Positions 6,500-31,753 of a stretch of 32,923 nucleotides of DNA are shown here, piece after piece. Each line of letters opens with the position of its first letter. Within the stretch, counting starts at the first letter, position 1. The translations under genes and the position numbers were made by a program. Origin of the DNA: a virus; IMG/VR virus record IMGVR_UViG_3300042383_000392, positions 1-32,923 of that record, one strand, 5' to 3'. The notes below the pieces were generated by a model, which saw nothing but the letters and a program-made list of their open reading frames with translations, did not search any database and had not been told where the DNA came from.

Positions 6500-8605
6500 A
6501 TGCCGGGTAGCGTCAAAGTCGCCAGCAACAGCCTGAACAACGGGAATGTCGTCGCCATCGAGATGAATTGGGTAGGCGATTCCGTCAATGGCAGCGTGCC
6601 AAACACCGCGTTTCCCACGGCCAAATACGCTTGCGATGGCTTCGTGGTGGCCAACGTGGCCGTTTCCATTGGCGACATCGCTCCCACGGATGGCTACACG
6701 GTCCGCATCTACAATTCTCAGGGCATCGACATTCTGGAAGGCGCTGGAGTTGGGCTTTCGGCCATTTCGTATGCGTTCGGCGTATCCTCCAATATCCCCC
6801 CGGCATACGGTGGCATCACGGCCAGCATCAGCGGTAACAGCGTGCCTCTCGCAAAAGGGAAAATCGTGATCTACTTCCGGCAGGTGAGCACGTCTCAACT
6901 TGTGCAGCCTGCGGATGGAACGTCATCGGCGGGAACGTCTCTCACGGCCAGCGATGTAACGAGCGCCTACGCATGGACGCGCACCCCCGGAGCGTCGATT
7001 GCGCTCACGGCTGGCGTTCCGGCTACGATCACGCTTACCCCGATGCCCGCTGGCATCAACGGATCCAGCGTCAATAAGCACTACGTTTCGGTCGTGACCG
7101 GATCGGCGCGGAAAGCGTACCTGATCACGGCGGTGGGCGCTTCTTCGATCACCTTCACCCCGGCGCTGTCCTACGCGGCTGGCTCTTGGGCGCTGCAATC
7201 GGCTTCAGGCGGCATTCAGGAAGCGATCTACGCCACCTCCTACAAGTCGCTGACGGTTCCTCAAGGTTCGATCTCCTACGATGCGCTGCGTGTCTGGAAT
7301 CCACGGAAACTGCAACTTAACGGGCAGGGCAAGGACGCCACGCTTATCGTGATCCGCGAAGCGACGGCGAACGTGTTCCTCTCCGACGAGTGGGGATTGA
7401 CGATCACGAACATGGGGTTCCGGTCTCTCACCGCTGGCCAGACCGCTGGGACGTGTATCGGGATTGTCGGAACCACGCCACAATACAACGGTGATGCCGA
7501 TGTCAACGTGTGGGACTGCGATTTCTACCAAGTCTGGGATGCGGTCGTGTGCGATTGGCCTGGTGGATTCCTTCGGGCTCAGAACAACTACTTCCGCAAC
7601 GTTGGACGGTACGCGTGCTACTCGGAAGCGACCTCTGCCGCTGCCATTCAGATCGTCAACAACTACTTCGACGGTCGCACGTCGATTGGCCTGATCTGGC
7701 TTGAAGGAATCATTGGAGGCGGCGTCATTGCAGCGAACTGGATGCAAGCCAGCCTTGCGCATCTCGTCATCAACTGCCCTGCTGCGGTCGTCAATGAAAT
7801 GGTGGTGGTTGGAAACCTGTTCGACCAGGATACGGCCAGCACTGGCTGCGTCATAGTAACAGGAACACCCACCTACGGCTCCAACTGCGTCAAGATCACG
7901 GCGAACTACCTGCGCACGCAGAATTACGCCGTACTGGTGCAGGATTGCAGCAACATCACCATCAGCGACAACCACGTCTACACCCTGGGAGCATCGCCCG
8001 CGCTTGTCATCGGCGGTAGCGTTAGCTGCAAAAACATCGAAATTCTCGGAAATCGCGTTCGCATGGAAGGCGCGGTCTACGCCACCCCGCCAGACTACGC
8101 TATCCAGTTGTCAAACCCGTCAATGACCAACGTTTTCGTCAGCGGCAACAGCGCGACGAGCGAGGGCGGGAACTGTACGGCCATGATCGGCATTACAGGC
8201 GCTCTCGTGGCTTCCCTCATCAGCGGAAACCAATCCGGTACGGGCGTCCCAAAGCTGATCAATGACGTGGCGGCGACCGGCTCTGGAACTGCCGTGGTAT
8301 CCGGCAATCAGGCATACAACCAGCCGACTTTGACCGCGATTGTGGCTGCTGCGACCATCACTTTGCCGCTGGCAGATGAGCAGCAGGTCATCCCCATCAC
8401 CGCCTCCGGTACGCCAATCACCGAAATGAACGGCGTTACCGCGAGGGCTGGGGTACGGCGCACCTTTATCGTTAGCGGGGCCGTCTCTTGGGCGACTAGC
8501 GCGGCGACTGACAATAAGATCGGCAAAGCCTACGGCCCCACGGCTGCGGGCGATGTCGTCACCTTTGTGAAATTTGGCGACAACCTCTGGTATCCCGTCG
8601 CATAA
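6500..8605 (+). CDS. Beta-helix tail spike-like protein (701 aa)
   Basis: This is probably a receptor-binding or polysaccharide-active spike. Residues about 230-560 show the repeated short-turn pattern of a right-handed parallel beta-helix: repeated N-N-Y-F, N-x-[VI]-x-[IV]-x-x-N and G-N-x-x units such as QIVNNYFDG, MVVVGNLFDQ, ITANYLRTQ, ITISDNHVYT and IEILGNRV. The N-terminal 130 residues (starting MPGSVKVASNSLNNGN) form a separate beta-rich domain that may attach to the virion. There is no signal peptide, unlike the other beta-helix protein at 25127-27658. Catalytic residues cannot be assigned by eye. The position, directly after the portal (start adjacent to the portal stop) and before scaffold and coat, is unusual for a spike. 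Confidence 0.72.
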   Translation: MPGSVKVASNSLNNGNVVAIEMNWVGDSVNGSVPNTAFPTAKYACDGFVVANVAVSIGDIAPTDGYTVRIYNSQGIDILEGAGVGLSAISYAFGVSSNIPPAYGGITASISGNSVPLAKGKIVIYFRQVSTSQLVQPADGTSSAGTSLTASDVTSAYAWTRTPGASIALTAGVPATITLTPMPAGINGSSVNKHYVSVVTGSARKAYLITAVGASSITFTPALSYAAGSWALQSASGGIQEAIYATSYKSLTVPQGSISYDALRVWNPRKLQLNGQGKDATLIVIREATANVFLSDEWGLTITNMGFRSLTAGQTAGTCIGIVGTTPQYNGDADVNVWDCDFYQVWDAVVCDWPGGFLRAQNNYFRNVGRYACYSEATSAAAIQIVNNYFDGRTSIGLIWLEGIIGGGVIAANWMQASLAHLVINCPAAVVNEMVVVGNLFDQDTASTGCVIVTGTPTYGSNCVKITANYLRTQNYAVLVQDCSNITISDNHVYTLGASPALVIGGSVSCKNIEILGNRVRMEGAVYATPPDYAIQLSNPSMTNVFVSGNSATSEGGNCTAMIGITGALVASLISGNQSGTGVPKLINDVAATGSGTAVVSGNQAYNQPTLTAIVAAATITLPLADEQQVIPITASGTPITEMNGVTARAGVRRTFIVSGAVSWATSAATDNKIGKAYGPTAAGDVVTFVKFGDNLWYPVA

Positions 8606-9550: not shown

Positions 9551-10801
9551 ATGTCTAACCAGCTTCTGACCTCCCAGGTCATCACCTACGAAACGCTGTC
9601 CGTCCTGAAGAACGATCTGCGCATCGTCAAGAACTTCTGGCGCGATGGCGATAAGGAATTCGGCAAAAAGGGCGACAAGATCGGCGATACGCTGTACGTG
9701 CGCAAGCCGCAGCGCTTCATTGGCCGCGACGGTCAAGCGTTCCAGCCCGAGGGCCTTTCCGATACTCAGGTGCCCATCACCATCAACCAGCAGAGCGGCG
9801 TTGATTTCGAGTTCTCGACCGCCGAACTGTACCTTAGCATCGACGATTTCCGCAATCGGTATCTCGCCAAGGCCGGTGAATCCATTGCCAACAAGCTCGA
9901 CTTGCGTTGTGCGCAGATGGCCGTGTTGAACACCGCCAACAACGTCGGCACCGTGGGCGTCATTCCGGGTCTGTCCGGTTCCGATGCGTTCCTGACGTAC
10001 TCGCAGGCTGGCCGGTTGCTGACCGAAAACGGCTTCAGCCGTGGCGTGAAGAAGGTGATGGCGCTAACGGCGGGTGCCGAAGTCGGCTGGAACACCTACG
10101 CGAAGGCGTTCTTCAACCCGTCTGGCAAGTTGAGCGAACAGTGGTCCACCGGGCAGGTGTCCAACGCCCTCGGTTACCAGTGGTACGTGGACGAGAACCT
10201 GCCGACGCAGACCATCGGCGCTCTCGGTGGAACGCCTGCCGTTGACGGCGCGAACCAGACAGGAACGACGATCAACCTGAAGGGCTGGACCCCCAGCGTG
10301 ACCGGCGTGCTGAACGTTGGCGATGTGATCAGCTACTCGGGCGTCTTCAACGTCAACCCGCAAAGCCGCCTCTCCACCGGACAGCCGTTCCAGCAGGTTG
10401 TGCAGGCCATCGCCAACTCGGATGGCGGCGGTTTGTGTTCGGTGTCGGTCTATCCGGCCATGGTTCCCAGCGGCCAGTATCAGAACTGCACCGGCTCCCC
10501 CGCCGATAGCGCTCTGGTCAGCGTGTACGGCGTGGCGGCGGCTGGTCAGTCTGCCATCGCTGGCGTGGCCACCCGTCAGCAGTTGCTTTGGACGCCGGAA
10601 GCCTACGCCTTCATGAGCTTCCCCGGTGACGTGCCCAAGGGCGTCGATATGGGGTACGCTGCGAACGACAACTCCAGCGGCGTCTCGCTGCGCTTCGTGC
10701 GCTTGTTCGACGCGGTACGCGATCAGTGGATCAACCGTTTCGATGTGTACTACGGCGCGAGCCCGATGTACCCCGAAGGCGGCGTGCGCATCAACAGCTA
10801 A
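9551..10801 (+). CDS. Major coat protein, P22 gp5 type (416 aa)
   Basis: This is the main shell protein, with the HK97 fold expected. The N terminus (MSNQLLTSQVITYETLSVLK, then GDKIGDTLYVRKPQRF near residues 50-65) matches the P22 coat family, as do the VPITINQQSGVDFEFSTAEL segment and the SIANKLDLRCAQMAV helix. The length is close to the 430 residues of P22 gp5, leaving room for its inserted domain (around residues 220-345). The C-terminal RFDVYYGASPMYPEGGVRIN is also typical. The ribosome-binding site GAGGAT lies ahead of the ATG. A strong terminator follows eight bases after the stop. Confidence 0.9.
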   Translation: MSNQLLTSQVITYETLSVLKNDLRIVKNFWRDGDKEFGKKGDKIGDTLYVRKPQRFIGRDGQAFQPEGLSDTQVPITINQQSGVDFEFSTAELYLSIDDFRNRYLAKAGESIANKLDLRCAQMAVLNTANNVGTVGVIPGLSGSDAFLTYSQAGRLLTENGFSRGVKKVMALTAGAEVGWNTYAKAFFNPSGKLSEQWSTGQVSNALGYQWYVDENLPTQTIGALGGTPAVDGANQTGTTINLKGWTPSVTGVLNVGDVISYSGVFNVNPQSRLSTGQPFQQVVQAIANSDGGGLCSVSVYPAMVPSGQYQNCTGSPADSALVSVYGVAAAGQSAIAGVATRQQLLWTPEAYAFMSFPGDVPKGVDMGYAANDNSSGVSLRFVRLFDAVRDQWINRFDVYYGASPMYPEGGVRINS

Positions 10802-10808
10802 ACCAGCG

Positions 10809-10830
10809 GGGGCGGTTCGCCGCCCCTTTT
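10809..10830 (+). terminator. Intrinsic terminator after the coat gene
   Basis: A perfect 7-bp GC stem (GGGGCGG 10809-10815, CCGCCCC 10820-10826) with a TTCG loop is followed by TTTT. It separates coat from the signal-peptide gene block, whose first ATG is only ten bases further on. Expression of that block must therefore rely on read-through or an unseen promoter. Confidence 0.85.
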
Positions 10831-10839
10831 GGAACCACC

Positions 10840-11316
10840 ATGAGAATCCTACTCATTATTTTCGCCTCACTTGCCTGCCTTGCGCAGCAAGCGACGTTTA
10901 TGGCGATCTCCTCGCAAACAGGCGTGACTTCGGACAAGCTGACCATTCAGCAGAACCAAAGCACGCCGGTCTACATGCAAGGCGTTCGCGCTGTCGTCGT
11001 CTCCACGACGGCTGGAACCTGCGTCACTAGGCAACGCGGCACGGCTCCCACGGCTACGGCTACGACCATTCGCCAGACCAACGGCGCGGCGGCGTTCTCC
11101 CGTCTATCGGCCTACGCGGCGTCCGACGTTGGCACCGGAACAGCCACCTCTCCGGTTTACTCTCTCGTACAGGTCGGATCGTCCTACACACTCGACCTCG
11201 ACATGACCGCTTCCGGCTTCGTCGGCATCGGCACAACCAAAAACATCACCATCTCGTGTTCGATCTCGGCTGGTGACATCCAGATCGCCATGTACTGGAA
11301 GGAGCAACAGCAATGA
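10840..11316 (+). CDS. Exported hypothetical protein with Sec signal peptide (158 aa)
   Basis: Residues 1-16 (MRILLIIFASLACLAQ) form a textbook signal peptide: a basic N terminus, a hydrophobic core and cleavage after Leu-Ala before Gln-Gln. The mature part is beta-rich (Thr, Ser, Ala, Val) and has two Cys (in TCVTRQRG and ISCSIS) that could pair outside the cytoplasm. No known domain is recognised. It is the first of three signal-peptide genes lying between two terminators, right after the coat gene. The start at 10840 gives the signal peptide; reading further upstream would run through the terminator. An outer decoration role or a host-modifying exported protein are both possible. Confidence 0.7.
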   Translation: MRILLIIFASLACLAQQATFMAISSQTGVTSDKLTIQQNQSTPVYMQGVRAVVVSTTAGTCVTRQRGTAPTATATTIRQTNGAAAFSRLSAYAASDVGTGTATSPVYSLVQVGSSYTLDLDMTASGFVGIGTTKNITISCSISAGDIQIAMYWKEQQQ

Positions 11317-12512
11317 GCAATTACGCGAAGCGACTCAAACTCTGGGCAGCGCTTTTGTTCGCCGTGGCCGCCTACGGGCAGCAGACCACCACATCCACGA
11401 CTCTATCGAGCGCCGTCAACACTGTATCCAGCACTCAATGGTGCTTGGCCTCGGCTACCGGCGTCATCGTCCCCAACACCGCCAGCAGCGCCTCTGGGTC
11501 GTTGTTGTTGGCTGACCGGGAAGTAGTTCAGGTTACCGGCGCTGGCTACACCTCGACCTGCTTTAAGGTCAAGCGCGGCCAGATGGGTTCGGCTGTCGCC
11601 TCTCACTCGGCGGCGTCTATCGTTTGGGTGGGCCAACCATCTACATCGAGCGGTGATAGTTCGCGCCCGTTCACTGGTGCGTTCATCACGACTCTGCCGA
11701 CCGGCTCCTGCGTATCTGGCGATCAGTTCACCCTTCCGGTGTTGTTTGTTGGGTCCGCCTCGCTTGGGGGTGTACCTGGAACGCCATATGACTGCATTTC
11801 GAGTCAGTGGACGAGCATCGGCAACCTCACGGTTACCGGCAAGACCAACTCTCAGACCGCTGTGCTGTTGAACGGGTTCGGACCCGGCGCTACTCCAGTT
11901 GTTCGCGGTAGCCGAGCAAACGGCAGTCCAGCGTCTCCCAGTGCTGTCACCGACGCTCAACTGCTGCTGAATCTTTCTGGCACTGGTTACGGTGCGACGG
12001 GATTCGCAAGCGGCTCGCGCGGCGCGGTTGCCGTTGCAGCTACTGAGGGATGGACGGACAGCGCTCAGGGAACTCGCGTTCAGTTTTCGACCACGTCAAA
12101 CGGATCTACGACCAGTGCGCTGCGCTGGTTTGTTGACCAAGACGGCGGACTGAAGCCCTGGACCAGCGGTAGTGGTCGGCTTGGCGATAGTACCCATCTG
12201 GTTGAAGGTGCCAGTTTCGTCAATTGCACCAGCGGCGCGTCACCCGCAGTTTGCGGGGCGTCCGTCGTCGGGGCTGTAGCGGTGGCGGCGGCGGCAACCT
12301 CGCTCGTGGTCAACACAACGGCGGTAACGGCCAAGTCTCGCATCGTCATCACCATGGATTCCAGCCTCGGAAGCGACCTCGGCATCACCTGTAACACCAC
12401 GAACATCGCCGCATGGGTCAGCGCCCGCACGGCTGGAACATCTTTCACGATTACCACGGCATCGGGTCCGGTAACGAATGCCATGTGCCTCAACTACACC
12501 ATTTTGAACTGA
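11313..12512 (+). CDS. Exported protein, paralogue A (399 aa)
   Basis: The start overlaps the previous stop (ATGA). Residues 1-22 are a signal peptide (basic SNYAKRLK, core LWAALLFAVAA, cleavage YG before QQ). Residues about 23-165 are clearly homologous to the same region of the next gene (12540): both have QQTT.STTLSSA, WC[LI]ASA[TS]GV, DRE...T.C.KVKR, VW[VI]GQ, GDSSRPFTGAF and a later Cys before the tryptophan. Four Cys positions are shared. The rest (about 170-399) is Ser/Thr/Ala-rich beta sequence, including a RWFVDQDGGLKPWTSGSGRL stretch as in fibre or appendage proteins, and CNTTN near the end. The function is unknown. Confidence 0.7.
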   Translation: MSNYAKRLKLWAALLFAVAAYGQQTTTSTTLSSAVNTVSSTQWCLASATGVIVPNTASSASGSLLLADREVVQVTGAGYTSTCFKVKRGQMGSAVASHSAASIVWVGQPSTSSGDSSRPFTGAFITTLPTGSCVSGDQFTLPVLFVGSASLGGVPGTPYDCISSQWTSIGNLTVTGKTNSQTAVLLNGFGPGATPVVRGSRANGSPASPSAVTDAQLLLNLSGTGYGATGFASGSRGAVAVAATEGWTDSAQGTRVQFSTTSNGSTTSALRWFVDQDGGLKPWTSGSGRLGDSTHLVEGASFVNCTSGASPAVCGASVVGAVAVAAAATSLVVNTTAVTAKSRIVITMDSSLGSDLGITCNTTNIAAWVSARTAGTSFTITTASGPVTNAMCLNYTILN

Positions 12513-12539
12513 CGGCGAAAGCCAAAAAGGAAAAAAACC

Positions 12540-13580
12540 ATGCCCAAAATCCTCATTATGCTGGTTCTTTCGGCTTTCGCCGCATTCAGCCAGCAAACTA
12601 CTGCCAGCACCACGCTTTCGAGCGCCCTGACCTCCACCACGAATGCCGAGTGGTGTATCGCCAGCGCGTCGGGCGTTGTGCTTGCCTCCACCAGCGGCAA
12701 CGCCTCCTACTTCTTCGTGGACCGCGAGGCCGCGCAGATCACAAGCCAGGGAAGTACCGCCACCTGCTACAAGGTGAAGCGTGCGCAACTCGGTACCGCG
12801 CAAATGGCCCACGCCGCCTCTTCCAAAGTGTGGATCGGTCAAGCCTCGACCGGCACCGGGGACTCCAGCCGCCCGTTCACGGGTGCATTCACGTCCACCA
12901 TGCCGTCTGGCGCTTGCACGGCTTCGGCGCAGTACACGTTGCCGATCATCTACACCGGCCCCGCCAGCGGTGGCGCGTTCCCAGGAAGCGTCATCAACTG
13001 CATCGGTAGCCGGTGGAGCGGGCAGGCGGATAAGACGTTCTACGTCCCGCCCAGCGCTTGCACGTTCGCCCCGACGACTCTCACCACGACCAACACCTAC
13101 ATTCAGGTGGGCGCGTCGACGGTGTTCGTCCTCAACGGAACCAGCAACGCGGCGGCTGGCACCAATACCCTGACCTGCAATATCGTGATCCCCACGGCTG
13201 TGACTGCACTGCAAGGCGCGGTCATTACCGATATCGTGGGCTACTACGGTTCGCAGACCACGGCCCCCACGTCCATCGGTACGGCCACTCTGGGCAGCAT
13301 CTCGTTCGCCACCCCGGCTACGGGAGCGGCTGTATCCACGGTCACGCCGGTGAGCTTCGGCGGAACGATCACCAACACGGTCCCCACGCTCATCACCACA
13401 GTGACCACGGCGGGTTCGTTCTTGCCCATCAAGTCGGCTCTCGGTACCCCTGTCACGTTGTCCACCGACAACCAGATTTTGGTGTACAAGCTGCCGTTCG
13501 TGCAGTCGGCGGCGTCGGCCATGACCATCAACACCCCCGGCCTGATCGTGCATTACGCTGCTGCAACCACCTTGCCGTAG
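12540..13580 (+). CDS. Exported protein, paralogue B (346 aa)
   Basis: Residues 1-17 are a signal peptide (MPKILIMLVLSAFAAFS, then QQ). Residues about 18-160 form the domain shared with the gene at 11313-12512, including the four aligned Cys. The C-terminal half differs from that of paralogue A: a beta-rich, Thr/Val/Ile-rich region with repeated TT.T..P.T stretches and a C-terminal hydrophobic strand pattern (QILVYKLPFVQSAAS, then TINTPGLIVHYA). The ribosome-binding site is AAGGA. An intrinsic terminator follows. Shared N-terminal domains with different C termini suggest a common attachment or export module carrying different outer domains. Confidence 0.7.
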   Translation: MPKILIMLVLSAFAAFSQQTTASTTLSSALTSTTNAEWCIASASGVVLASTSGNASYFFVDREAAQITSQGSTATCYKVKRAQLGTAQMAHAASSKVWIGQASTGTGDSSRPFTGAFTSTMPSGACTASAQYTLPIIYTGPASGGAFPGSVINCIGSRWSGQADKTFYVPPSACTFAPTTLTTTNTYIQVGASTVFVLNGTSNAAAGTNTLTCNIVIPTAVTALQGAVITDIVGYYGSQTTAPTSIGTATLGSISFATPATGAAVSTVTPVSFGGTITNTVPTLITTVTTAGSFLPIKSALGTPVTLSTDNQILVYKLPFVQSAASAMTINTPGLIVHYAAATTLP

Positions 13581-13594
13581 AACCTCCGGCGATC

Positions 13595-13625
13595 TGGGGC
13601 GGGACCGTCAACCGCCCCACTTTTT
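13595..13625 (+). terminator. Intrinsic terminator after the signal-peptide gene block
   Basis: A perfect 8-bp stem (TGGGGCGG 13595-13602, CCGCCCCA 13612-13619) with a 9-base loop is followed by CTTTTT. With the terminator at 10809-10830 it brackets the three exported-protein genes. Confidence 0.85.
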
Positions 13626-14952: not shown

Positions 14953-15312
14953 ATGACGTACCAATGGAAACAGGCCGAAGGTGTTTTGCTGCAAGGCGGC
15001 AAGGCTATCTCGCGCGGATACGCTGGCTCTCCGGGTCACGTCAATTCTACGGCCAGCGAGGCGTTGAAGAATAAAGGGCCTCTCCCGCGCGGCGGATATA
15101 CGATCACGCTCATCTACCCCAAGCACGCCAAGTTTGGGCCAGCCTGTTGTGTGCTTCAGCCTGACTCCACGAATAAGATGTTTGGCCGTTCCGCGTTCCT
15201 TATTCATGCCGATTCAATCAAGATCCCCGGAGCGGCATCTGAAGGGTGTATCATCCTCGACTACAAAACGCGCCTATTGTTCAAGGTTGGCGACCGAATC
15301 GAGGTCATCTAA
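14953..15312 (+). CDS. L,D-transpeptidase/DUF2778-like cell-wall enzyme (119 aa)
   Basis: The likely role is cleavage or cross-link exchange in peptidoglycan during DNA entry or lysis. The GPLPRGGYTI segment (42-51), the FLIHAD motif with His85, and the catalytic-type ASEGCI with Cys99 (95-100) follow the order of the L,D-transpeptidase fold as seen in DUF2778 and Tlde1-like proteins (G-P-x-P-x-G-x-Y, H-x-D, S-x-G-C). There is no signal peptide or membrane segment. It begins directly after gp4-like A and its stop overlaps the start of gp4-like B (TAATG), so it belongs to the tail-assembly group rather than a lysis cassette. I see no other peptidoglycan hydrolase in the window. Confidence 0.68.
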   Translation: MTYQWKQAEGVLLQGGKAISRGYAGSPGHVNSTASEALKNKGPLPRGGYTITLIYPKHAKFGPACCVLQPDSTNKMFGRSAFLIHADSIKIPGAASEGCIILDYKTRLLFKVGDRIEVI

Positions 15313-23579: not shown

Positions 23580-24200
23580 ATGAACCTGCTACACCAAACC
23601 ACCCCAAGGAGCGAACCGCCGATGCAAAGCTGGTTCAAAACAATCATCTCGACCGCAGCGCCTTCGGCAGAGTGGCCATGGTGGGCGATATCGGCTCAAA
23701 CGGCCATTGCTGCGCACGTCGGCTACTTCTGGTCGATGAACGCCGCCTTCCGGTGGCTGGTTCTGGGCATCGCGGCTAACCTTCTGGCCACGCTGGCGTG
23801 CGTGCTGTTCCTTCCTGATCGGCGCGGACAGATCCACTTCAAACAAGACGTGGCGGTCAAGTCGCTGATGATCTGGCTGGTGTGGATGCTATCCAAAGAG
23901 CCCATTTTGCAAGTCGATGTCGCTGGGCAGTCGGTCAGTATCGCTGCCGTACTAGCGGCCTACTTCCTCACGGCTGAGTGGATTGGCTTTCTCCAGCGTG
24001 CTGGCGACTTGGGCATGAAGTTTCCCAAGTGGGTCGGGGATGCGCTCCAACGAGCCAACGACGGCATCAACAACGCGGAGATAGGCGGCAAGGTCGTGGG
24101 TGCCATGACGAGCTTCACACAGCGCTCTGACGGCTCCACGGAAACCATCAGCAAGACATCCACCATCGTGACCACGAAACCGGAGACCCCCAGTGCATAG
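23580..24200 (+). CDS. Holin-like membrane protein (206 aa)
   Basis: Holins permeabilise the inner membrane at lysis. Four hydrophobic segments are visible at about residues 33-52, 56-78, 93-112 and 117-137. They are followed by ...AEWIGFLQRAGDLGMKFPKW, which matches the end of the phage_holin_4 (toxin secretion/lysis holin) type: an acidic residue, a hydrophobic helix, then G-x-x-x-P and an amphipathic helix. The C terminus is long, Ser/Thr-rich and polar. Two starts have ribosome-binding sites: ATG 23580 (AAGAGG) and ATG 23622 (AAGGAG), which could give two products differing by 14 residues, as in dual-start holins. No classical endolysin is next to it. Confidence 0.6.
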   Translation: MNLLHQTTPRSEPPMQSWFKTIISTAAPSAEWPWWAISAQTAIAAHVGYFWSMNAAFRWLVLGIAANLLATLACVLFLPDRRGQIHFKQDVAVKSLMIWLVWMLSKEPILQVDVAGQSVSIAAVLAAYFLTAEWIGFLQRAGDLGMKFPKWVGDALQRANDGINNAEIGGKVVGAMTSFTQRSDGSTETISKTSTIVTTKPETPSA

Positions 24201-25137
24201 ACTCATCTCGATCATGGTTTTGGCCTCGGCCGCATGGGCGCAGTACCCGATTCCCGGAAGCATGGGAGGCGGGGGAGGCGGGGGTGCCGTAGCAAGCGTC
24301 ACGGCTGGCCCGCTCGGTGCTCTGGTCTGCACACCGACGACGGGCGCGGTGGTTTGCGACGTTGACAGCGCCTACGTGCCGAACAAGGCTGGATCGGCAA
24401 CAATCACCGGGGCGTGGACGTTTTCAACGCCTCCCACTGGGATCGGCGGAGGCACCGCTCGAACCACCTACGCCGCGCTCCCGGCTTGCACTTCGGCTAA
24501 CTCCGGCACGCTGTACAAGTTGACGGATTCCATCTACGAAGCGCAGTGCAACGGCACTTCGTACTCATATTGGACCGGGCAAAAGTACATCCCGACGCTG
24601 CCGTGGAGCAACGGCACCACATTCGGCGCTGGTGCGACAATTACTGCGACGACCGGGAGCGTGTTGTTTGATAGTGGGGCTGGTACAGGCGGGGATTCTA
24701 TTCGAGCAGCGATCAAAGCTGTGCCCGCCGCCCCGTACACGATTATTCTCGATGTTGACGTTGCGATAAACGCCACTGTAAGTTCGTCGTGCGGGTTGGT
24801 TTTAACTGACGGAACCACCGCCGCATCGAACAAAGTCATTACCCTCATGCAAAGTCACATTGGCCTCAATTCGACCAAACTGAATAATGCGACGTTGTGG
24901 AACTCCACCTACCTGAACTACGTTCAATCGACGTCCCGAGGTAAGATCTCCTTTCGCATGGTTGACGACAATGTGAATCGAACGTGGTCCGTCTCGCCGG
25001 ATCGGATCAACTGGAAACAAGTCATGCAGCAAGGGAGGACGGACTTTTTAACCGCGAGCCACTATGGGTACGGTTGCAATATGAACGGTGTCAGCGGGGA
25101 CACTGTGATGGTGGTTGAAGGGTTGTATGCGCAGTAG
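24193..25137 (+). CDS. Exported fibre-like protein with signal peptide (314 aa)
   Basis: The GTG at 24193 overlaps the holin-like gene and gives a full signal peptide (MHRLISIMVLASAAWA, then QYPIPGS). A later ATG at 24214 would remove its basic start. A glycine run (residues 23-32) is followed by two Cys (VCTPTTGAVVC), then a SATITGAWTFST segment and a LPACTSANSGTLYKLTDS...QCNGTSY segment that read like fibre-adapter sequence. The C-terminal ~170 residues form a beta-sandwich-like domain (FDSGAGTGGDSIRAA, later RTWSVSPDRINWKQVMQQGR). Its role is unknown. It overlaps the next gene by 11 bases. Confidence 0.65.
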   Translation: MHRLISIMVLASAAWAQYPIPGSMGGGGGGGAVASVTAGPLGALVCTPTTGAVVCDVDSAYVPNKAGSATITGAWTFSTPPTGIGGGTARTTYAALPACTSANSGTLYKLTDSIYEAQCNGTSYSYWTGQKYIPTLPWSNGTTFGAGATITATTGSVLFDSGAGTGGDSIRAAIKAVPAAPYTIILDVDVAINATVSSSCGLVLTDGTTAASNKVITLMQSHIGLNSTKLNNATLWNSTYLNYVQSTSRGKISFRMVDDNVNRTWSVSPDRINWKQVMQQGRTDFLTASHYGYGCNMNGVSGDTVMVVEGLYAQ

Positions 25138-27658
25138 CTTACTGCTCCTGCTGTGTGCCCCGCTCATAGCCCAGACCTACAGCGCTGTCAGCGTGGACAA
25201 AATCACCCCCTCGGGGGCCCGCGTCTTGTGGACCACCAGCATTGCCACGCCTTCGCACATCAACTGGGGTACGGTATCCGGTTCGCTGACTAGCAGTAAC
25301 GCCTCGGTTAACGGGTTCAACACAACGTCGCACCAATGGTACATCTCCGGCGCGCCACCGGCGACCGTCATCTACTACAAAGTCTGCGCTTCGGCGGTGT
25401 CGTGTGATGCTACGGAGCGCAGTTTCACGACCTCGGCACAACCCAGCACCTACCCGAACACACCCGTCGCGCCGGCTTCATTTCCCCTTCCGGCCATGCC
25501 GACGATTGATGGCACCACGCTGACGGTGGATGCAACCTGCAGCAACTTCAGCGCGCACCTGAACACCCTGAAAGCCCTCGACGGCGACAAAAACCACAAG
25601 CTGGTAATCCCGGCTGGCGTTGTATGCGCGCAGCACAGTGGGGCCACTACGGGAAACGCAAACTCATCTCAAGTCGCCTTCCCCACGAAGACCGGTGCAA
25701 ACCCAAGTGGAACCGGAGTAATCATCATCACGACGGACGCAACCTTGCCACCTGAAGGGGCGCGGATCACGTCGGATTGGTCCACCTCCTACATGGTTAA
25801 CACCGTAGTTGGGATTCTGGAACTATCTACGGCACCGTCAAGCGGCGGTTTATGCGTGTCTGGTCAGATGTACTGGGATTACCTAGTTGCCGTTGGTGGG
25901 ACATGGGCGCTAAAGGAATGCACTACGCCAGCGGCTGGCGCTGGTGGCTACACCCTCGTCGCAAAAACTACATTCACTGGCACTCCGCCGACGCCATGCA
26001 CCGCCAATACGTGGTACCAGAAGACAGACGCCTCTGACGTTGCCCTAGGGCTGTACCGCTGCGACGACCTGGGCCGGATGTTGCAAGTCCAGATCGGTCT
26101 GCAATCGGCGTTTGAGTTCTCCATAGGCACGACGGCTAAAGGGTATCGCTTTGTAGGCATCACCTTCGACGCTCTTCGCTGGCCTACTGCCAGCCCTCCC
26201 AGTTGGCTCACCTCCAATTCGTTCGTCTATGGCTCGTATTTTTCATCGCTGTTTGATTTCTCCACGGCCACAAACGTATCCATCGATCGATGCCGCTTCA
26301 TCGGCGGCAGTTACCCAAACCGCTATCAGAACTTCATCAAGCTGGCTGGAACCTACAACTACATTGCCAACTCTTCCATCGAAGGTATCTCCCTTGCGCT
26401 GACGCCAGCCGGTGGCGCGGAACCATCGAACCAAACTGAGTTCACTGGCATCAATATCAGCGGCGGTCAATACATCCTGTTCGACAATAACTGGATGGAG
26501 GGTCCAGGAATACTACTGCATGGCACCGACGATACCGCATCCCAATACGCCCAAGACGTCCGGGTAACGCGAAACTACTTCTCCATCCCCGACACTTACT
26601 GGTACAACTCTGCGACCAGCAACGGGCACTTCTATCACAACCGGCACGGCGTCGAATTGAAGCGCGGCGTCCGCTGGTTGATCGAGGGGAACACCTTCGC
26701 TGGCGGGTTTTCAACGGTCAATCAGGCCCACGCCGTCGATGTCAGTTTCCGGCCAGGCAGCTATGGCGCCACGGTGCTGCTGACCGACATCGACATCACG
26801 AACAACACCATCACGGACCACAGCAACGCGGTCTACCTGTCCGGGCACAACGACAACGACTCCGAACAGGGACAAGCCGTCCAGCGGGTCCGAGTGGCGA
26901 ACAACCTGATGTACGGCATCGACGGGGACCGCTTTGCTGCCGGCTACGGACAACGTTTTGGCAACTGCGTCCAGACCGCACTCGGCGGCGAAGACGTCAT
27001 CGTCGAAAACAACATCTGCCTCCAAACCGGGAACGGCCAATACCCCGCGGTTCTGCTCACCGACACCGCCGGAGGTCTTTACGGCTCCTTGAAGTACGTC
27101 CGGAACTTCGCCACCCACGTCGTCCCTCAGAACCTGACCACGGGGATCAGCCGGGCTAACAACGCCAACCGGGGCACTGCAACCCTCACTGCCGCCTTCC
27201 AGCAGTACACGGCGACGCAAAACGGCTTCATCAACCTCAGCAGCCAAACGACGACGGACTACCCCGCCGGGAACTCCTGGCCCGCGACTCTTGCTGATGT
27301 CGGTTTTGCCAACACCGCGGTGAACGACTACCGCCTGAAGTTCTCCAGCACCTACGCGCCAACCGGGGCCGGGGCCGACATCGACTCGATCCGCGCCACC
27401 TACGGCGAGGTATACAACCTCCGCGCCCTGTCGATCACTTCAACGGCGGCGACGGTCTACTACACCGCGCCGGATGCTACGAACGCCTGCACGGTGGAAT
27501 ACGGCACCTCGGCCACTCCCGGAACCGGCTCCCGCGTGACTGACTCCACGGGGAGCCGATTCCGCACGAAGGCGCTGACGGGGTTGGCATCGGGGACTGG
27601 GTATCACTTCCGCGTGTACTGTTCGCAGATGGCGGCGGGGACGTTTACGACGAACTAA
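25127..27658 (+). CDS. Exported FN3 / beta-helix / FN3 spike-like protein (843 aa)
   Basis: ATG 25127 (GAAGGG ahead) yields a signal peptide (MRSSLLLLLCAPLIA, then QTYS); a TTG four codons upstream is less likely. Residues about 18-110 look like a fibronectin type III domain (SGARVLWTTS, VIYYKVCASAV). The middle (about 130-690) is a right-handed beta-helix with many N-N-x-[FIM] turns (YIANSSIEG, FDNNWMEGPG, VTRNYFSIP, IEGNTFAGG, ITNNTITDHS, VANNLMYGI, VENNICLQT), typical of polysaccharide lyases and spikes. The last 85 residues are a second FN3 domain (STAATVYYTAP, YHFRVYC). From about 26.7 kb codon third positions become strongly C/G, unlike the earlier part. The stop overlaps that of the convergent gene at 27655. 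Confidence 0.75.
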   Translation: MRSSLLLLLCAPLIAQTYSAVSVDKITPSGARVLWTTSIATPSHINWGTVSGSLTSSNASVNGFNTTSHQWYISGAPPATVIYYKVCASAVSCDATERSFTTSAQPSTYPNTPVAPASFPLPAMPTIDGTTLTVDATCSNFSAHLNTLKALDGDKNHKLVIPAGVVCAQHSGATTGNANSSQVAFPTKTGANPSGTGVIIITTDATLPPEGARITSDWSTSYMVNTVVGILELSTAPSSGGLCVSGQMYWDYLVAVGGTWALKECTTPAAGAGGYTLVAKTTFTGTPPTPCTANTWYQKTDASDVALGLYRCDDLGRMLQVQIGLQSAFEFSIGTTAKGYRFVGITFDALRWPTASPPSWLTSNSFVYGSYFSSLFDFSTATNVSIDRCRFIGGSYPNRYQNFIKLAGTYNYIANSSIEGISLALTPAGGAEPSNQTEFTGINISGGQYILFDNNWMEGPGILLHGTDDTASQYAQDVRVTRNYFSIPDTYWYNSATSNGHFYHNRHGVELKRGVRWLIEGNTFAGGFSTVNQAHAVDVSFRPGSYGATVLLTDIDITNNTITDHSNAVYLSGHNDNDSEQGQAVQRVRVANNLMYGIDGDRFAAGYGQRFGNCVQTALGGEDVIVENNICLQTGNGQYPAVLLTDTAGGLYGSLKYVRNFATHVVPQNLTTGISRANNANRGTATLTAAFQQYTATQNGFINLSSQTTTDYPAGNSWPATLADVGFANTAVNDYRLKFSSTYAPTGAGADIDSIRATYGEVYNLRALSITSTAATVYYTAPDATNACTVEYGTSATPGTGSRVTDSTGSRFRTKALTGLASGTGYHFRVYCSQMAAGTFTTN

Positions 27659-28314
27659 TCCCACAGGCTATCCCGCTCCCAGCGTGACTGCACCGGGGTA
27701 GCCTCTCGCTGCGCCCGCGCCCGCTCCAGCAACTCAGCCACCCGCGCCCGCTCTGCCTCGGTATCCAGCACCGGAAGCACCACCACCTCGCGCTTCTCCA
27801 CCTTGGTCATCCTCTGGAGCTTCTGCGACTGCGGCGGCTTGTCGTAGGATCGCGGCTGGCGGTGTTTCTCCCGCGTCTCGCGCTCGTGTGTCTCGCGGTG
27901 CTGCTTCGTCGCGTAGGTGGCACCGGAGCGGCATCTCTCGCCACAACCGCAGGCGCACAGCACGACGATGGTGTCGGCCATGCGGCGTCGGTGTTGTTTG
28001 GCCGCACGGATACGTGCTTTCGCCAGCGTGTCCTCAACAGTGCAGGCTTCGCACAGTCCTTTTCGGCTGTTCAGCTTTTGCGGCTGCTGCTTGCATTTTG
28101 TGCAGGTCATAGGCTCCTTTGGCGGCTCAACTTGTCGTGGAATATATGGCTTTGGTGCTGGCGTTGGCTGCTTCGCAACTCGGTTCTCAGCCTGCCACTT
28201 GTTGCCGCACGGCTTGCAGATCGAGCGGTCTGGTTTGAATTTTTCAGCTTCCTTCAGTATTGGACGCTTGCATACTTTGCACGGGTCACCGGGACGCCAC
28301 GGCATGTACCTCAT
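27655..28314 (-). CDS. Multi-zinc-motif protein (219 aa)
   Basis: The product has three Cys clusters: Cys12/15 with Cys33/36 (CKVC...CKPC), Cys71/74 with Cys88/91 (CTKC...CEAC) and a compact CACGCGERC at 120-128. These are zinc-ribbon or knuckle-like, joined by Lys/Arg/Pro-rich linkers, and followed by a long charged helix (about 130-215). Nucleic-acid binding is likely, but the target is unknown. ATG 28314 was chosen because it forms an ATGA overlap with the upstream stop; a longer reading would run into that gene. It is the last gene of the leftward operon and meets the late region tail to tail. Confidence 0.7.
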   Translation of the reverse strand: MRYMPWRPGDPCKVCKRPILKEAEKFKPDRSICKPCGNKWQAENRVAKQPTPAPKPYIPRQVEPPKEPMTCTKCKQQPQKLNSRKGLCEACTVEDTLAKARIRAAKQHRRRMADTIVVLCACGCGERCRSGATYATKQHRETHERETREKHRQPRSYDKPPQSQKLQRMTKVEKREVVVLPVLDTEAERARVAELLERARAQREATPVQSRWERDSLWD

Positions 28315-28643
28315 GGCTTGCCTTTTCGTGCGGCGTCGATGGCTCTGCGGAGAGTTCGATGCGATAAGCCTAGCCCGGCTCCATTCCATTTGACATGGCC
28401 GCCGATTTGATGATGGATCAGGAGCCCGCCAGCTTTATCACTCCCAGCAAGCTTCTCTAATTCACTGAGCCGTTTACTATCCTCCCGCGCCACCGCCAGC
28501 GCGGATTCTAGTTCGTCCACCTTGGCATTCAGGCGTGCAATCTCATCTCGGTCGCGCTGTTCTGCCTCGGCTTGCGCGTGATAGTCGGCTTCAGCCGCAT
28601 CGGCTTGGTCTTTCAGGTAATCAACGTAGTCGTTGTGGTTCAT
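28311..28643 (-). CDS. Coiled-coil hypothetical protein (110 aa)
   Basis: The N-terminal 75 residues form a long charged heptad-like helix (YLKDQADAAEADYHAQAEAE, then ARLNAKVDELESALAVARED). The C-terminal part (HVKWNGAGLGLSHRTLRRAI) looks like a small DNA-binding or partner-binding segment. The start at 28643 has a strong ribosome-binding site (GGAAGGG) just inside the upstream gene, and the downstream gene overlaps by ATGA. No family is recognised. Confidence 0.65.
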   Translation of the reverse strand: MNHNDYVDYLKDQADAAEADYHAQAEAEQRDRDEIARLNAKVDELESALAVAREDSKRLSELEKLAGSDKAGGLLIHHQIGGHVKWNGAGLGLSHRTLRRAIDAARKGKP

Positions 28644-28644
28644 T

Positions 28645-28908
28645 CTATCCCTTCCTCTCCTTCTCCCACTCGGCCCGCGCCTTCTGTAATACCTCAGTCG
28701 GTGACGTGCCATCTACCGAAGTAAACCACCCAACACTGCACCGCCATCTTCCGCTCTGATGAGTGACGTGGGCTTTCGCTTCAGCTTGCCAATGAAGCAA
28801 CTCCAGCGCATCAGCGCCCATCGGCACAGCCTGACGTTCAGCCTCCGTGAGGACGTGCGGCTTGCGGCCAACTCCCCGCAGCACCTCCGCCGCGCGTGCG
28901 GTGGTCAT
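28645..28908 (-). CDS. Hypothetical protein (87 aa)
   Basis: ATG 28908 overlaps the upstream stop (ATGA) and follows GGAAAGGG. An in-frame ATG at 28920 is the alternative start. The product has a basic helical N terminus (TTARAAEVLRGVGRKPHVLT), the segment ALELLHWQAEAKAHVTHQSG, then a W-rich strand pair (GRWRCSVGWFTSVDG) and an amphipathic C-terminal helix. The WRCSVGW part resembles small phage ORFs that handle single motifs of unknown role. Confidence 0.6.
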   Translation of the reverse strand: MTTARAAEVLRGVGRKPHVLTEAERQAVPMGADALELLHWQAEAKAHVTHQSGRWRCSVGWFTSVDGTSPTEVLQKARAEWEKERKG

Positions 28909-29288
28909 AACCCTTTCCATGCTCTCCACCTTTCCAATAACTTCGCCTTCGCCGGCGCCGTCAGAGAGTCCCAGCATTCTCCCGCCATCTTCATATTCCT
29001 GAAAGCGTCGGTATCGTGAAATGCGTTCCACATATCGCCAAAGGCTGGCGTTGCTTCGCCGCACGAGTAAACATGGCGGATATCGGCGCACGCCTCGCAG
29101 GTCTTTGTTGTCTCCACGGCTCCATCAAACTTGCAGGTGAACGCCTCGTACCGCTGTCCCTTCTGGATTACTTGGCGGCACTCGCAACACTTGTGGTCTT
29201 TGCGGGCCTTCCTAGTTTCTACCGTCTGGAACTCTGGGAATCCGTCGCAGTCGTATTCTCCGCCAATGCACACGTCGCACGCGCTCAC
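28905..29288 (-). CDS. Zinc-finger-like phage protein (127 aa)
   Basis: The GTG at 29288 overlaps the upstream stop (GTGA). A longer in-frame reading exists but would lie inside the upstream gene. Metal ligands are visible: CDVC at 4-7, then KDHKCCECRQVIQKGQRYE and TCKFDGAVETTKTCEACADI, a CxxC...CxxC pair separated by about 30 residues. This finger, beginning with R-K-x-x-H-x-C-x-x-C and a G-x-x-Y-E turn, recurs in phage and bacterial hypothetical proteins of unknown function. The C-terminal half is helical. Confidence 0.68.
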   Translation of the reverse strand: MSACDVCIGGEYDCDGFPEFQTVETRKARKDHKCCECRQVIQKGQRYEAFTCKFDGAVETTKTCEACADIRHVYSCGEATPAFGDMWNAFHDTDAFRNMKMAGECWDSLTAPAKAKLLERWRAWKGL

Positions 29289-29620
29289 GCCCCCACCTCC
29301 ACACGCCAGCCCCAGCGCCCGCCGCGCTGCTCGACGGTGATGGCGGAGATCATAAACACGCCCTCGACCACTTCGCCACCGGACAGCTTCACCAAATCGC
29401 CGGGCTGGCCGTAGGGACAGCGCCGGGTAATCCGGTACATGCAGCTTGGAGTAAGCGGAATGATGTCTCCCTTGTCCTCCCAAACCAAATACTCCGGGTG
29501 GATGATCGAGCCGTCGCCACGGATTCCGACGCGCGGCTGCTTCCGCATCGCCCGCCAGATCCGCCGCTCGCCGTTGGTGTAGGCGGCGGATTCGGCGCGA
29601 GTTAGTCGGAGGGTATTCAT
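29285..29620 (-). CDS. ASCH/PUA-like phage protein with PYGQPGD motif (111 aa)
   Basis: The N-terminal part (LTRAESAAYTNGERRIWRAM) and the hallmark CPYGQPGDLVKLSG in the second half follow the layout of phage proteins with an ASCH/PUA-type beta-barrel (reading R-R, then PYGxPGD-x-[LV]). The family is thought to bind RNA or modified bases, but no activity is known for such phage members. It overlaps both neighbours by ATGA/GTGA, with start at 29620. Confidence 0.6.
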   Translation of the reverse strand: MNTLRLTRAESAAYTNGERRIWRAMRKQPRVGIRGDGSIIHPEYLVWEDKGDIIPLTPSCMYRITRRCPYGQPGDLVKLSGGEVVEGVFMISAITVEQRGGRWGWRVEVGA

Positions 29621-29859
29621 ACCTCCCCCAGCCCCATCACCACGTACCCCGGTTCAATGCCAAACTTGCCACCAGACAGAACGTAGGTTACGGCCAACTC
29701 CATGAACTCCGCGCCGTAGAAGTCGGCATCTACCGATCGGTACAGGTGAAGGATGTCGCCAACCTTGAAATCTCGGTCGTTCGTGCGAACCTCGAATGGC
29801 TTCGCCCCGCTGTTTACCGCATCCCAGTATTCTGGTAGGGTTTTCGGTTCGTGAATCAC
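29617..29859 (-). CDS. DUF3850/ASCH-like protein (80 aa)
   Basis: The layout HEPKTLPEYWDAVNSGAKPF-EVRTNDRDFKVGDIL...VTYVLSGG-FGIEPGYVVMGL is that of the DUF3850 ASCH-like family: H-x-x-K, a W/Y-helix, K-x-F-E-[VI]-R-x-N-D-R-x-[FY]-x-V-G-D. These are small beta-barrels predicted to bind RNA. The GTG at 29859 gives a GTGA overlap with the upstream gene and a GAGGAG ribosome-binding site at eight bases. A GTG three codons upstream (29868) is possible. Full family length is present. Confidence 0.78.
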   Translation of the reverse strand: MIHEPKTLPEYWDAVNSGAKPFEVRTNDRDFKVGDILHLYRSVDADFYGAEFMELAVTYVLSGGKFGIEPGYVVMGLGEV

Positions 29860-29978
29860 AGTTTCCACTCCTCTCCTTTACGCACAATTGACAGCCCCGC
29901 AAACCACCGCTGCTTGTACCACAGGCCCCAGCAGCGCCATGGGCCTACCTGCGAGTTCCAAAACCACATGGTCTTCAT
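29856..29978 (-). CDS. Tryptophan-rich mini-protein (40 aa)
   Basis: The ATG overlaps the upstream stop (ATGA) and its own stop overlaps the next start (GTGA), so it is embedded in the coupled chain. Seven of 40 residues are Trp (positions 5, 7, 14, 17, 20, 25 and 38), with a basic C terminus. No membrane segment or known domain is clear. The coupling on both sides is the main reason to accept such a short gene. Confidence 0.5.
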   Translation of the reverse strand: MKTMWFWNSQVGPWRCWGLWYKQRWFAGLSIVRKGEEWKL

Positions 29979-30316
29979 GCTGGCCCTCCGGTGGCGCGGT
30001 ATAGTGCTTGGGCGAGGGCGGATGGACCGTCCGCGCTGCCAAACTTCGCAAACGAGGAAAAGCAAACCGCGTGTTCTTGGAACAATATGCCGCCGTCGTT
30101 TTGCTCTGACCTAAAGCTGTAATACCGCCCTTCGCCTTTCTTCCGCCACGCCTCAGCCGCGCGGATGCAGGCGGCTGGGTCGGTGTTGTAGGTGGCGACG
30201 GGCTTCCACGGCCCGTTAAAACGGATCTCGTGCGGCTCCGCGGCAAACTCGGTCGATACCTCCAGTCCCTCGCAATGCTCGGCAATCCATACGTCGTGCG
30301 CTCTTGTCCAATTCAT
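29975..30316 (-). CDS. Hypothetical protein (113 aa)
   Basis: The product starts MNWTRAHDVWIAEHCEGLEV and continues with EIRFNGPWKPVATYNTDPAA, then CIRAAEAWRKKGEGRYYSFR. The W-I-A-E-H / Y-[NS]-T-D-x-x-A-A / E-A-W arrangement is one I recall from small phage proteins without known function. ATG 30316 has an AGAGAGGA ribosome-binding site and forms an ATGA overlap. A longer upstream reading is rejected for those reasons. Confidence 0.65.
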   Translation of the reverse strand: MNWTRAHDVWIAEHCEGLEVSTEFAAEPHEIRFNGPWKPVATYNTDPAACIRAAEAWRKKGEGRYYSFRSEQNDGGILFQEHAVCFSSFAKFGSADGPSALAQALYRATGGPA

Positions 30317-30492
30317 GCAATCCTCTCTTTCCTGCGAACCACAGCCCATGCCTGATTCATGCGCCGCTCTTTTTTCCAGTACACTCGCTGCCGTTCTCCG
30401 CTTGGCAGTGAATAGTAACGCTGGAGAGTTGCTTTCGCCTGCTCCCGCGCAATCGCCAGCCGCTTGCGGGCCATGCGGACGCGGCGGATCAT
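30313..30492 (-). CDS. Small basic helical protein (59 aa)
   Basis: The product is very basic (many Arg and Lys), with helical segments IRRVRMARKRLAIAREQAKA and SGERQRVYWKKERRMNQAWA. Nucleic-acid contact is plausible but not shown. The ATG at 30492 and the stop both overlap neighbours by ATGA. Confidence 0.58.
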   Translation of the reverse strand: MIRRVRMARKRLAIAREQAKATLQRYYSLPSGERQRVYWKKERRMNQAWAVVRRKERIA

Positions 30493-30704
30493 TCCGCACC
30501 GCCTAGGTACTCGGCGTCGGCCATCACCGCGCGAAAGCCGATTCCAGTCATCCACGTCGATGTGCCATCCGCGTATCGCATCCGCACCTCATCGTCTTCC
30601 GCTTGCGTCAACACTGTTGGATCACTCCACGGCCAGTCGTGCGTTTTTATCTTCCACCGATCCCCCGCCATCGGATTCGCCAGCGCCTCAGCCTTACTTC
30701 GCAT
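30489..30704 (-). CDS. Hypothetical protein (71 aa)
   Basis: The product starts MRSKAEALANPMAGDRWKIK and contains the block DDEVRMRYADGTSTWMTGIG, a pattern also seen in small phage ORFs (VRMRYADGTS). It may form a small beta-barrel. ATG 30704 is part of the GGAGGCCACCGATGC initiation cassette and overlaps the end of the upstream gene by 11 bases. Confidence 0.6.
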   Translation of the reverse strand: MRSKAEALANPMAGDRWKIKTHDWPWSDPTVLTQAEDDEVRMRYADGTSTWMTGIGFRAVMADAEYLGGAE

Positions 30705-30984
30705 CGGTGGCCTCCTGCGCGGCTTCGACGGCGGCGATGGCGGTGAGCTTAGGGTCATACTCGCCAGCCCATGCGGTATCCAAAGTGAACCCATGGCGGT
30801 CGGATACGATGCACCACGTATGGTTCCCGGTGTGCTCCTTCGCCCGCTCCACCTTCGCCCAAGCCGCCGCGCACCGGGCGAGGTCACGGAGTCTCTCGCT
30901 TGCCTTCGCGCTGCCTTCGTAATCGAGCGCGTTGGCTTCTGTTTCCGCCCACACCGCCAACTCCTCCAGACGTTTAGCGTGCAT
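30694..30984 (-). CDS. Helical hypothetical protein (96 aa)
   Basis: The product has N-terminal helices (MHAKRLEELAVWAETEANAL, LRDLARCAAAWAKVERAKEH) and a short beta part (HTWCIVSDRHGFTLDTAWAG), ending in the EATDAK tail coded by the initiation cassette of the next gene. No family is recognised. ATG 30984 has the GGAGG cassette at six bases and overlaps the upstream gene by 11 bases. Confidence 0.6.
   Translation of the reverse strand: MHAKRLEELAVWAETEANALDYEGSAKASERLRDLARCAAAWAKVERAKEHTGNHTWCIVSDRHGFTLDTAWAGEYDPKLTAIAAVEAAQEATDAK
30701..30715 (-). promoter_or_regulatory. Translation-initiation cassette, copy 1
   Basis: On the minus strand GGAGGCCACCGATGC gives a perfect GGAGG, a six-base spacer and the ATG of the gene at 30489-30704. 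The same 15 bases occur at 30981-30995 and 31750-31764, and a variant with one extra C at 632-646. Confidence 0.75.
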
Positions 30985-31753
30985 CGGTGGCCTCCTTCTT
31001 CAGTTCCTCGGCTGCGTCTTTGACCGCGTTGTAGGCGTCACGGACGCCATCGCCGTACCAGCCCTCGTTAAAGCCAAGAAATGGCTTGATATACTGTTCG
31101 GCGACGGACCGCAACGCCTCCGCCTTAATCCGTCCCAGCGACTGCGCCGGGGTGCGGGCGAGGGCGGCTTTAGACCTCTCTGTCACGCAATGCGGGCACA
31201 TGCAGCGCTTGACGTGTGGGGCTTGGCATGGTCCATAAGCACGCGCCCAACTCAGCTCGTCACTCAGCGCCCCGCAAAGGTCTTCGGCGTGGGCCCTGGC
31301 CTCGTCTCGCTCCCGCTCCATCGCGTTCCGACTGATGACCGCTTGGTTTCGGTAGTCAATGTACTCCACGCATTCCCGCTCGGCGACTTCGGCTCTGGCG
31401 GTGGCAGAGTCACGCAGCTTCAACGCTTCGCTCCATCCGTCCTGCGACTGCTTCGCGTTCAACAGCGCCGCCTTGGATTGTCCCCGCAGCCGCTCCACCT
31501 CGGCGCGGAGTTGGTCGCGCTCGGCCTCCTGCGCCTCCAACTTCACGCACTTATCCGCGTAGTGCCGCGCGTTGTTGCTGGCGGTAGCCAGTTGCGCTCG
31601 GAGTTGGTCGCGCTCGGCGGTGAGCCCCCGCACGTAGGCCAGGATGGCGGGGAAGGCGTCTCCGATAGTGGCTTCTCTCCATGCGGACAGGGCCACGTCA
31701 TCATCAAATCGATGCGCGTGCAGCCGCGCCAGTTCGTCGAGCTTCTCACGCAT
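30974..31753 (-). CDS. Long coiled-coil protein with CxCPHC knuckle (259 aa)
   Basis: Residues about 40-175 are predicted coiled coil with a repeated AERDQLRAQL / AERDQLRAEV unit (one near 47, one near 78). Then comes a small Cys/His cluster (HVKRCMCPHC), and a C-terminal globular part (QYIKPFLGFNEGWYGDGVRD). ATG 31753 is in the same GGAGGCCACCGATGC cassette; its stop region ends EATDAR. It could be a structural or regulatory scaffold of early phage proteins. The function is unknown. Confidence 0.6.
   Translation of the reverse strand: MREKLDELARLHAHRFDDDVALSAWREATIGDAFPAILAYVRGLTAERDQLRAQLATASNNARHYADKCVKLEAQEAERDQLRAEVERLRGQSKAALLNAKQSQDGWSEALKLRDSATARAEVAERECVEYIDYRNQAVISRNAMERERDEARAHAEDLCGALSDELSWARAYGPCQAPHVKRCMCPHCVTERSKAALARTPAQSLGRIKAEALRSVAEQYIKPFLGFNEGWYGDGVRDAYNAVKDAAEELKKEATDAR
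30981..30995 (-). promoter_or_regulatory. Translation-initiation cassette, copy 2
   Basis: This is identical to the 15-base cassette at 30701-30715. It starts the gene at 30694-30984 and encodes the last residues of the gene upstream. Confidence 0.75.

Follow-up and report, generated by a model that had tools for sequence, protein, structure and literature searches.

Predicted Sec-exported proteins of virion type are encoded beside the coat gene in a little-known group of P22-like phages

Introduction

Virions of tailed phages assemble in the cytoplasm, and the whole of their construction is assigned to this compartment, in which disulfides normally do not form. Phage proteins exported by host pathways are known from T5 (Llp) and lambda (Lom and Bor); Llp is an exported lipoprotein that blocks further phage adsorption and keeps the progeny off debris. 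These proteins have export in common with those described here, but they are envelope proteins that are not tied to the coat gene and do not contain virion domains. The coat proteins of filamentous phages, on the other hand, belong to the virion and are made with a signal peptide, the assembly of these phages taking place at the membrane, whereas the phage analyzed here is a tailed phage with P22-type head assembly in the cytoplasm. No precedent for signal peptides on virion proteins of tailed phages was found in the literature searched, and phage DGR target proteins are devoid of them (PMC6199706).

Two groups of virion proteins are closest to the products of the locus. Cement or decoration proteins, trimeric with Ig or jelly-roll folds (KHP30/KHP40, Pam1, GP4), are coat-linked small β-proteins, as are those of the block presented below; the GP4 cement protein contains 157 residues and forms trimers on the head (PMC9698820). 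In contrast to these cement proteins, the block proteins bear Sec signals. The second group comprises PHROG 1101, the minor tail protein of entry 8vjh, the tip attachment protein of entry 8rk3 and the tail tube protein of phage Mystique (9n71), which share with two of the block proteins a motif (D-x-E ... VxRGxxGT ... H ... VWV) and a fold of about 70–80 residues. In this group the shared region lies within larger tail proteins as an inner domain and lacks the cysteines of the block proteins in the aligned stretch, whereas in the latter the tail-tip-type domain comes first, in a stand-alone exported protein encoded beside the coat.

Results

Organization of the window

The window, that is the whole stretch of DNA analyzed here, is a virus record of 32.9 kb whose gene content is that of a P22-like podovirus, with the portal, scaffold and coat genes in the canonical P22-type order (Table 1). 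Three genes for predicted exported proteins, hereafter genes 1 to 3, form a block behind the coat gene. In the right 5 kb of the window (27658–32923) no clear family match was found on the minus strand. The late region also encodes, at positions 14953–15312, a 119-residue protein with a Tlde1 domain (PF10908, E 3e-11), a domain familiar from type VI secretion cell-wall effectors; this protein may be the lysis enzyme. Its place is occupied by a different small protein in the related contigs L027 and L067, and by nothing in L011.

Table 1. Features of the window, in order of position
Feature	Position	Strand	Remarks
Terminase	from 2490		
Portal	from 4337		PF16510, E 6e-130
β-helix protein	6500–8605	+	between portal and scaffold; no signal peptide in the window
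Scaffold	from 8648		phrog_8865, E 8e-25
Major coat protein, P22 type	9551–10801	+	PF11651 (Pfam), E 7e-24; phrog_283, E 4e-61
GC-rich UUCG hairpin and TTTT, after the coat gene	10808–10830	+	hairpin 10808–10826
Gene 1, 158 aa, predicted exported	10840–11316	+	signal peptide 10840–10884; 2 mature Cys; predicted jelly-roll sandwich
Gene 2, 399 aa, predicted exported	11313–12512	+	signal peptide 11313–11378; 8 mature Cys; N-terminal tail-tip/fibre-type domain; C-terminal part weakly like K1-lyase_C
Gene 3, 346 aa, predicted exported	12540–13580	+	signal peptide 12540–12590; 6 mature Cys; tail-tip/fibre-type domain (residues 20–102); CBM-like sandwich (163–344, low-confidence model)
Hairpin and T5	13595–13625	+	hairpin 13595–13619, z -1.6
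SU10-type adaptor	from 14233		after the block
Head-closure protein	from 16106		ejection-type proteins also in the window
Fourth signal-peptide gene	24193–25137	+	314 aa; MHRLISIMVLASAAWA followed by QY; 6 mature Cys; phrog_19068
Fifth signal-peptide gene	25115–27658	+	847 aa; MKGCMRSSLLLLLCAPLIA followed by QT; 13 mature Cys; purple-acid-phosphatase-N/fn3-type domains

Signal peptides

The products of genes 1, 2 and 3 begin with MRILLIIFASLACLA, MSNYAKRLKLWAALLFAVAAYG and MPKILIMLVLSAFAAFS, respectively, each followed by QQ, and all three N termini open with a short n-region, continue with an uncharged hydrophobic core and have a small residue ahead of QQ. Signal peptides were called by a rule-based scan (n-region, uncharged hydrophobic core, small residues at positions -3 and -1), which recognizes a Sec/signal-peptidase-I signal in genes 1–3 as well as in their homologues. 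The same scan yielded no signal peptide in the morphogenesis regions of eight isolate P22-like phages, and its false-positive level is low. An earlier note, made from the DNA sequence alone, had read Sec-type signals before Gln-Gln at the start of these three late genes and had proposed signal-peptide prediction as a check; the scan agrees for each of them. The number of three given in that note holds for the block, the total for the phage being five with the genes at 24193 and 25115; these two genes had escaped the earlier note, as had the gene duplication and the cysteine pattern described below. The two extra signal-peptide genes stand at the right end of the late region, after a gene with weak likeness to holins (23580).

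The codons of the signal peptides are under purifying selection (dN/dS about 0.2–0.6 where estimable) and the substitutions within them are conservative, one hydrophobic residue being exchanged for another. Since these codons are constrained, translation starts upstream of them. A phage lipoprotein of the T5 Llp or Bor type was considered and rejected, as there is no conserved lipobox with an invariant Cys at position +1: genes 2 and 3 have no lipobox, and the Cys in the signal of gene 1 is preceded by SLA, SVA or ALT across three lineages. Inspection by eye of the block proteins for a lipobox, a membrane anchor or an outer-membrane sorting signal recognized none.

A gene family linked to the coat gene

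Over roughly their first 160 residues genes 2 and 3 share 51% identity; they are paralogues, a duplication of the gene that sits behind the coat gene in most relatives. Family members were collected with a profile of this first domain of ~160 residues and counted where the junction with the coat gene is visible. In 37 contigs a member immediately follows the coat gene; many of these contigs are near-identical, so that they amount to about 17 distinct lineages; all but one (36/37) carry a signal peptide, the exception being L057. The coat gene is the constant upstream neighbour of the exported-protein gene and, as is the case for cement proteins, the two genes are adjacent, with 18–80 nt from the coat stop to the family gene in most contigs. 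The earlier note had also proposed looking for the block in related phages; the gene is present at one and the same place in nearly all relatives of the clade. No signal-peptide gene was found in this region of eight P22-like isolates or named records, the coat proteins of which are 26–35% identical, nor at the coat-adjacent place of several distant viral contigs.

The coat tree unites L057 and the signal-bearing phages in one group (88/82 support against the outgroup), and L057 is nested in a strongly supported inner clade. Because of this nested position L057 would have lost its signal, and one gain followed by this one loss is the simplest history compatible with the tree. The L057 contig retains signal-bearing genes at its right end. 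The phage group that carries these coat-linked genes is little known. In 50,697 phage records we found no homologues of genes 1 and 3, of the L057 and L068 proteins, of the β-helix protein, of the 25115 product or of the N-terminal domain of the L043 protein, and only a marginal match to a cyanophage fibre for the N-terminal domain of the L032 protein. In the close relative L010, genes 2 and 3 are separated by an inserted open reading frame (11353–12036) that starts with MPIIYMITNTKNGLKYIGQTKRTLAARW and resembles a GIY-YIG homing endonuclease; the signal-peptide region of gene 3 differs in this contig, the mature part being nearly identical.

Hairpins flanking the block

The hairpin behind the coat gene is significant (-21.8 kcal/mol, z -3.2) and its position is kept in close relatives; it is followed by only four T, and this run is not kept (three T in L011, none in L012). 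The element may be a weak terminator or an mRNA 3' protector. The hairpin behind gene 3 is conserved in close relatives and, on account of its run of five T and of a compensated stem change in L011, is the better of the two and a probable intrinsic terminator. Thus, where the earlier note saw two strong terminators, the second is borne out as a conserved hairpin with a T-run and the first is weakened by its short, unconserved one. A generic terminator scan of the window gave 13 sites against 12.4 expected, that is no excess, with neither hairpin among them, and no promoter-like site was found by scan. Among the more distant relatives, the block gene generally begins 18–41 nt past the coat gene with no strong hairpin in between, and the hairpins therefore do not mark a foreign cassette. 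They may lower expression downstream of the coat gene in the clade of the window.

Domains and predicted folds of the mature proteins

Among 23 family members, 17 match the tail protein family phrog_1101, and the family profile matches the solved tail-tip proteins 8vjh (E 0.015) and 8rk3 (E 0.053). Moreover, in the tail tube of phage Mystique residues 103–179 align with the model of the N-terminal domain (Z 8.2, with an rmsd of 2.0 for 70 residues). Judged from profile and model, the N-terminal domain of the mature protein is a phage virion domain. For the C-terminal part of gene 3, alignments to sandwiches of carbohydrate-binding modules were obtained (best Z 9.4 over 127 residues), starting from a low-confidence model with pLDDT values mostly between 35 and 70.

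The gene 1 model (pLDDT 77.6) displays a jelly-roll or TNF-like sandwich. Viral coat, tail-tip and cement proteins are among its best structural matches, with no match rising above the general level. The mature protein (about 143 residues) weakly matches the KHP40 cement protein (Z 7.1) and the Pam1 capsid unit (Z 6.8), values that lie within the chance-like range of β-sandwiches and do not imply kinship. Gene 1 has relatives beside other signal-bearing genes in two contigs, L022 and L099, the latter with a tape-measure gene of siphovirus type, so that P22-like phages are not alone in this habit. In L099 (6001–7091) the gene 1 homologue and a second signal-peptide gene (MHILILLLASLAAFA followed by QIPAPG) stand at the end of the tail cluster.

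Cysteine content and the signal-less member

Cysteines were compared in 20 distinct family members, 18 of them with a clear signal peptide. The mature part contains an even number of cysteines (4, 6 or 8) in 16 of these 18 proteins (p 7e-4, ignoring kinship), the exceptions being the distant members L068 and L070 with five. Columns 73 and 121 of the alignment always hold either two cysteines or none, and the same is true for columns 175 and 205; the two cysteines of the first pair have both moved in L032. The L057 protein, the only signal-less family member known, is encoded 25 nt behind the coat gene and contains no cysteine, its sequence being 50% identical to that of the exported L023 protein with four. 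Even, paired cysteines in the presence of a signal and none in its absence are the signs of folding in an oxidizing compartment. Within the window, the exported proteins contain 35 cysteines in 1964 residues against 32 in 6003 for the others (1.8 vs. 0.5 per 100), an excess with p 1e-6 when residues, which are not independent, are counted, and 0.003 in a rank test over proteins. Taken together, the even and paired cysteines, the cysteine-free L057 protein devoid of a signal and the constrained signal codons point to proteins that form disulfides outside the cytoplasm. The export signal looks functional, and export is well supported by this set of sequence evidence.

Other signal-bearing genes

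Homologues of the β-helix protein in L027, L067 and L032 carry a signal ahead of the same N-terminal domain, and those of the window and L025 do not. Extension of the cysteine comparison to the β-helix family revealed no difference between proteins with and without a signal; the argument drawn from cysteines is therefore not applied to it, and the switch counts as evidence from synteny only. The genes at 24193 and 25115 have counterparts in L022 that are alike by their signal peptides and not detectably homologous.

Host assignment

One bacterial contig only, the 10-kb contig L063 (PLUZ01000383.1), carries a phage of this group, and it is binned with Methylocapsa. This assignment was rejected as probably wrong, since the 148 other genomes searched from that family gave no match. 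From the style of the signal peptides we suspect an acidobacterial host.

Discussion

We propose, with a likelihood that we place close to even and still on its doubtful side, that the block is a coat-linked late module of Sec-exported, disulfide-bonded proteins of virion type, which are stored in the periplasm and join the virions at lysis. The proteins would be made late in infection together with the coat, would cross the inner membrane through the host Sec pathway and be trimmed by signal peptidase I; their disulfides would form in the periplasm, assumed to be oxidizing in this host, where the proteins would be held until lysis. Because virion assembly in tailed phages takes place in the cytoplasm, proteins exported through Sec cannot be added any earlier. 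At lysis the virions would exit the cytoplasm through the broken envelope and the stored proteins would attach to the virions, either as fibres or as a decoration of their surface, by which carbohydrate-binding modules would probably be added to the particle. This attachment is the least certain step, the chances being about equal for and against it, and the idea that part of the virion surface is matured in the periplasm, the coat-linked, Sec-exported and disulfide-bonded proteins being mounted on the leaving particles, is tentative and somewhat short of an even chance. The strongest hint for attachment is L057: the gene, its place and its sequence are kept there without export, which suggests a task that can be reached from either compartment, such as decoration of the particle. 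The earlier note had considered virion-associated proteins that pass through the membrane as one of two possibilities; synteny, the virion type of the N-terminal domain and the pattern of cysteines all agree with it, and while the sequences support the passage itself, association with the virion is what we infer from them.

The main rival is masking of the envelope or of receptors, in which exported fibre-type proteins would stay on the envelope or on surface glycans, block adsorption and free the progeny from debris. Export and disulfides support it, as do the fibre-like domain and the sandwich of carbohydrate-binding type, and competition for receptors would be well served by a module that has a fold or domain in common with receptor-binding proteins. 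We nevertheless regard it as unlikely: strict linkage to the coat gene is not expected of an exclusion gene, no anchoring or sorting signal was recognized by eye in the block proteins, and the signal-less version in L057 held its place and sequence, although a receptor-masking protein would need export whereas a decorator of particles could reach the virions from either side. The CBM-like fold at the C-terminus of gene 3 and the weak K1-lyase_C match of gene 2 are also what one would see in secreted companions, soluble adhesins or polysaccharide-binding or -degrading factors freed at lysis and directed at capsule, biofilm or environmental polymers, and similar signals are found on the two right-end proteins, one of which has phosphatase-N/fn3 domains. 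This explanation, however, leaves the coat linkage and the virion-type N-terminal domain unaccounted for, no catalytic domain was recognized in the block, and we consider it improbable.

Coat linkage and virion-type domain would both be explained if the hydrophobic N termini were not export signals but uncut segments for anchoring or assembly of virion proteins in the cytoplasm, and the N-terminal domain of the β-helix protein does occur with and without such a segment. The even, paired cysteines of signal-bearing members and their absence from the signal-less one, the conservative hydrophobic evolution and the n/h/c layout typical of Sec signals make this very improbable. A moron-like insertion was the other possibility of the earlier note. 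As a transcription unit of its own, foreign to the late programme, it is given hardly any weight. Hairpins do flank the block in the clade of the window, and gene 1, with homologues elsewhere, is found at this place in that clade only. Such an insertion is contradicted by a family gene that is syntenic across the clade rather than sporadic, that lies constantly beside the coat gene, usually with no hairpin after the latter, and for which the scan found no promoter of its own.

The presence of exported, virion-like proteins beside the coat gene suggests that a part of the particle, or a companion of it, is made outside the cell interior. Passage through the periplasm would let a phage carry disulfide-stabilized proteins, the formation of which the cytoplasm does not normally allow. 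The natural experiment offered by L057, a nested member in which the signal and all cysteines are absent together, makes the question directly testable. If a conserved, coat-linked protein of virion type is indeed exported and disulfide-bonded, some phages would use the second compartment of the cell as a workshop, either finishing the particle at release or shielding it, and a signal peptide would no longer count, in annotation, against a structural role.
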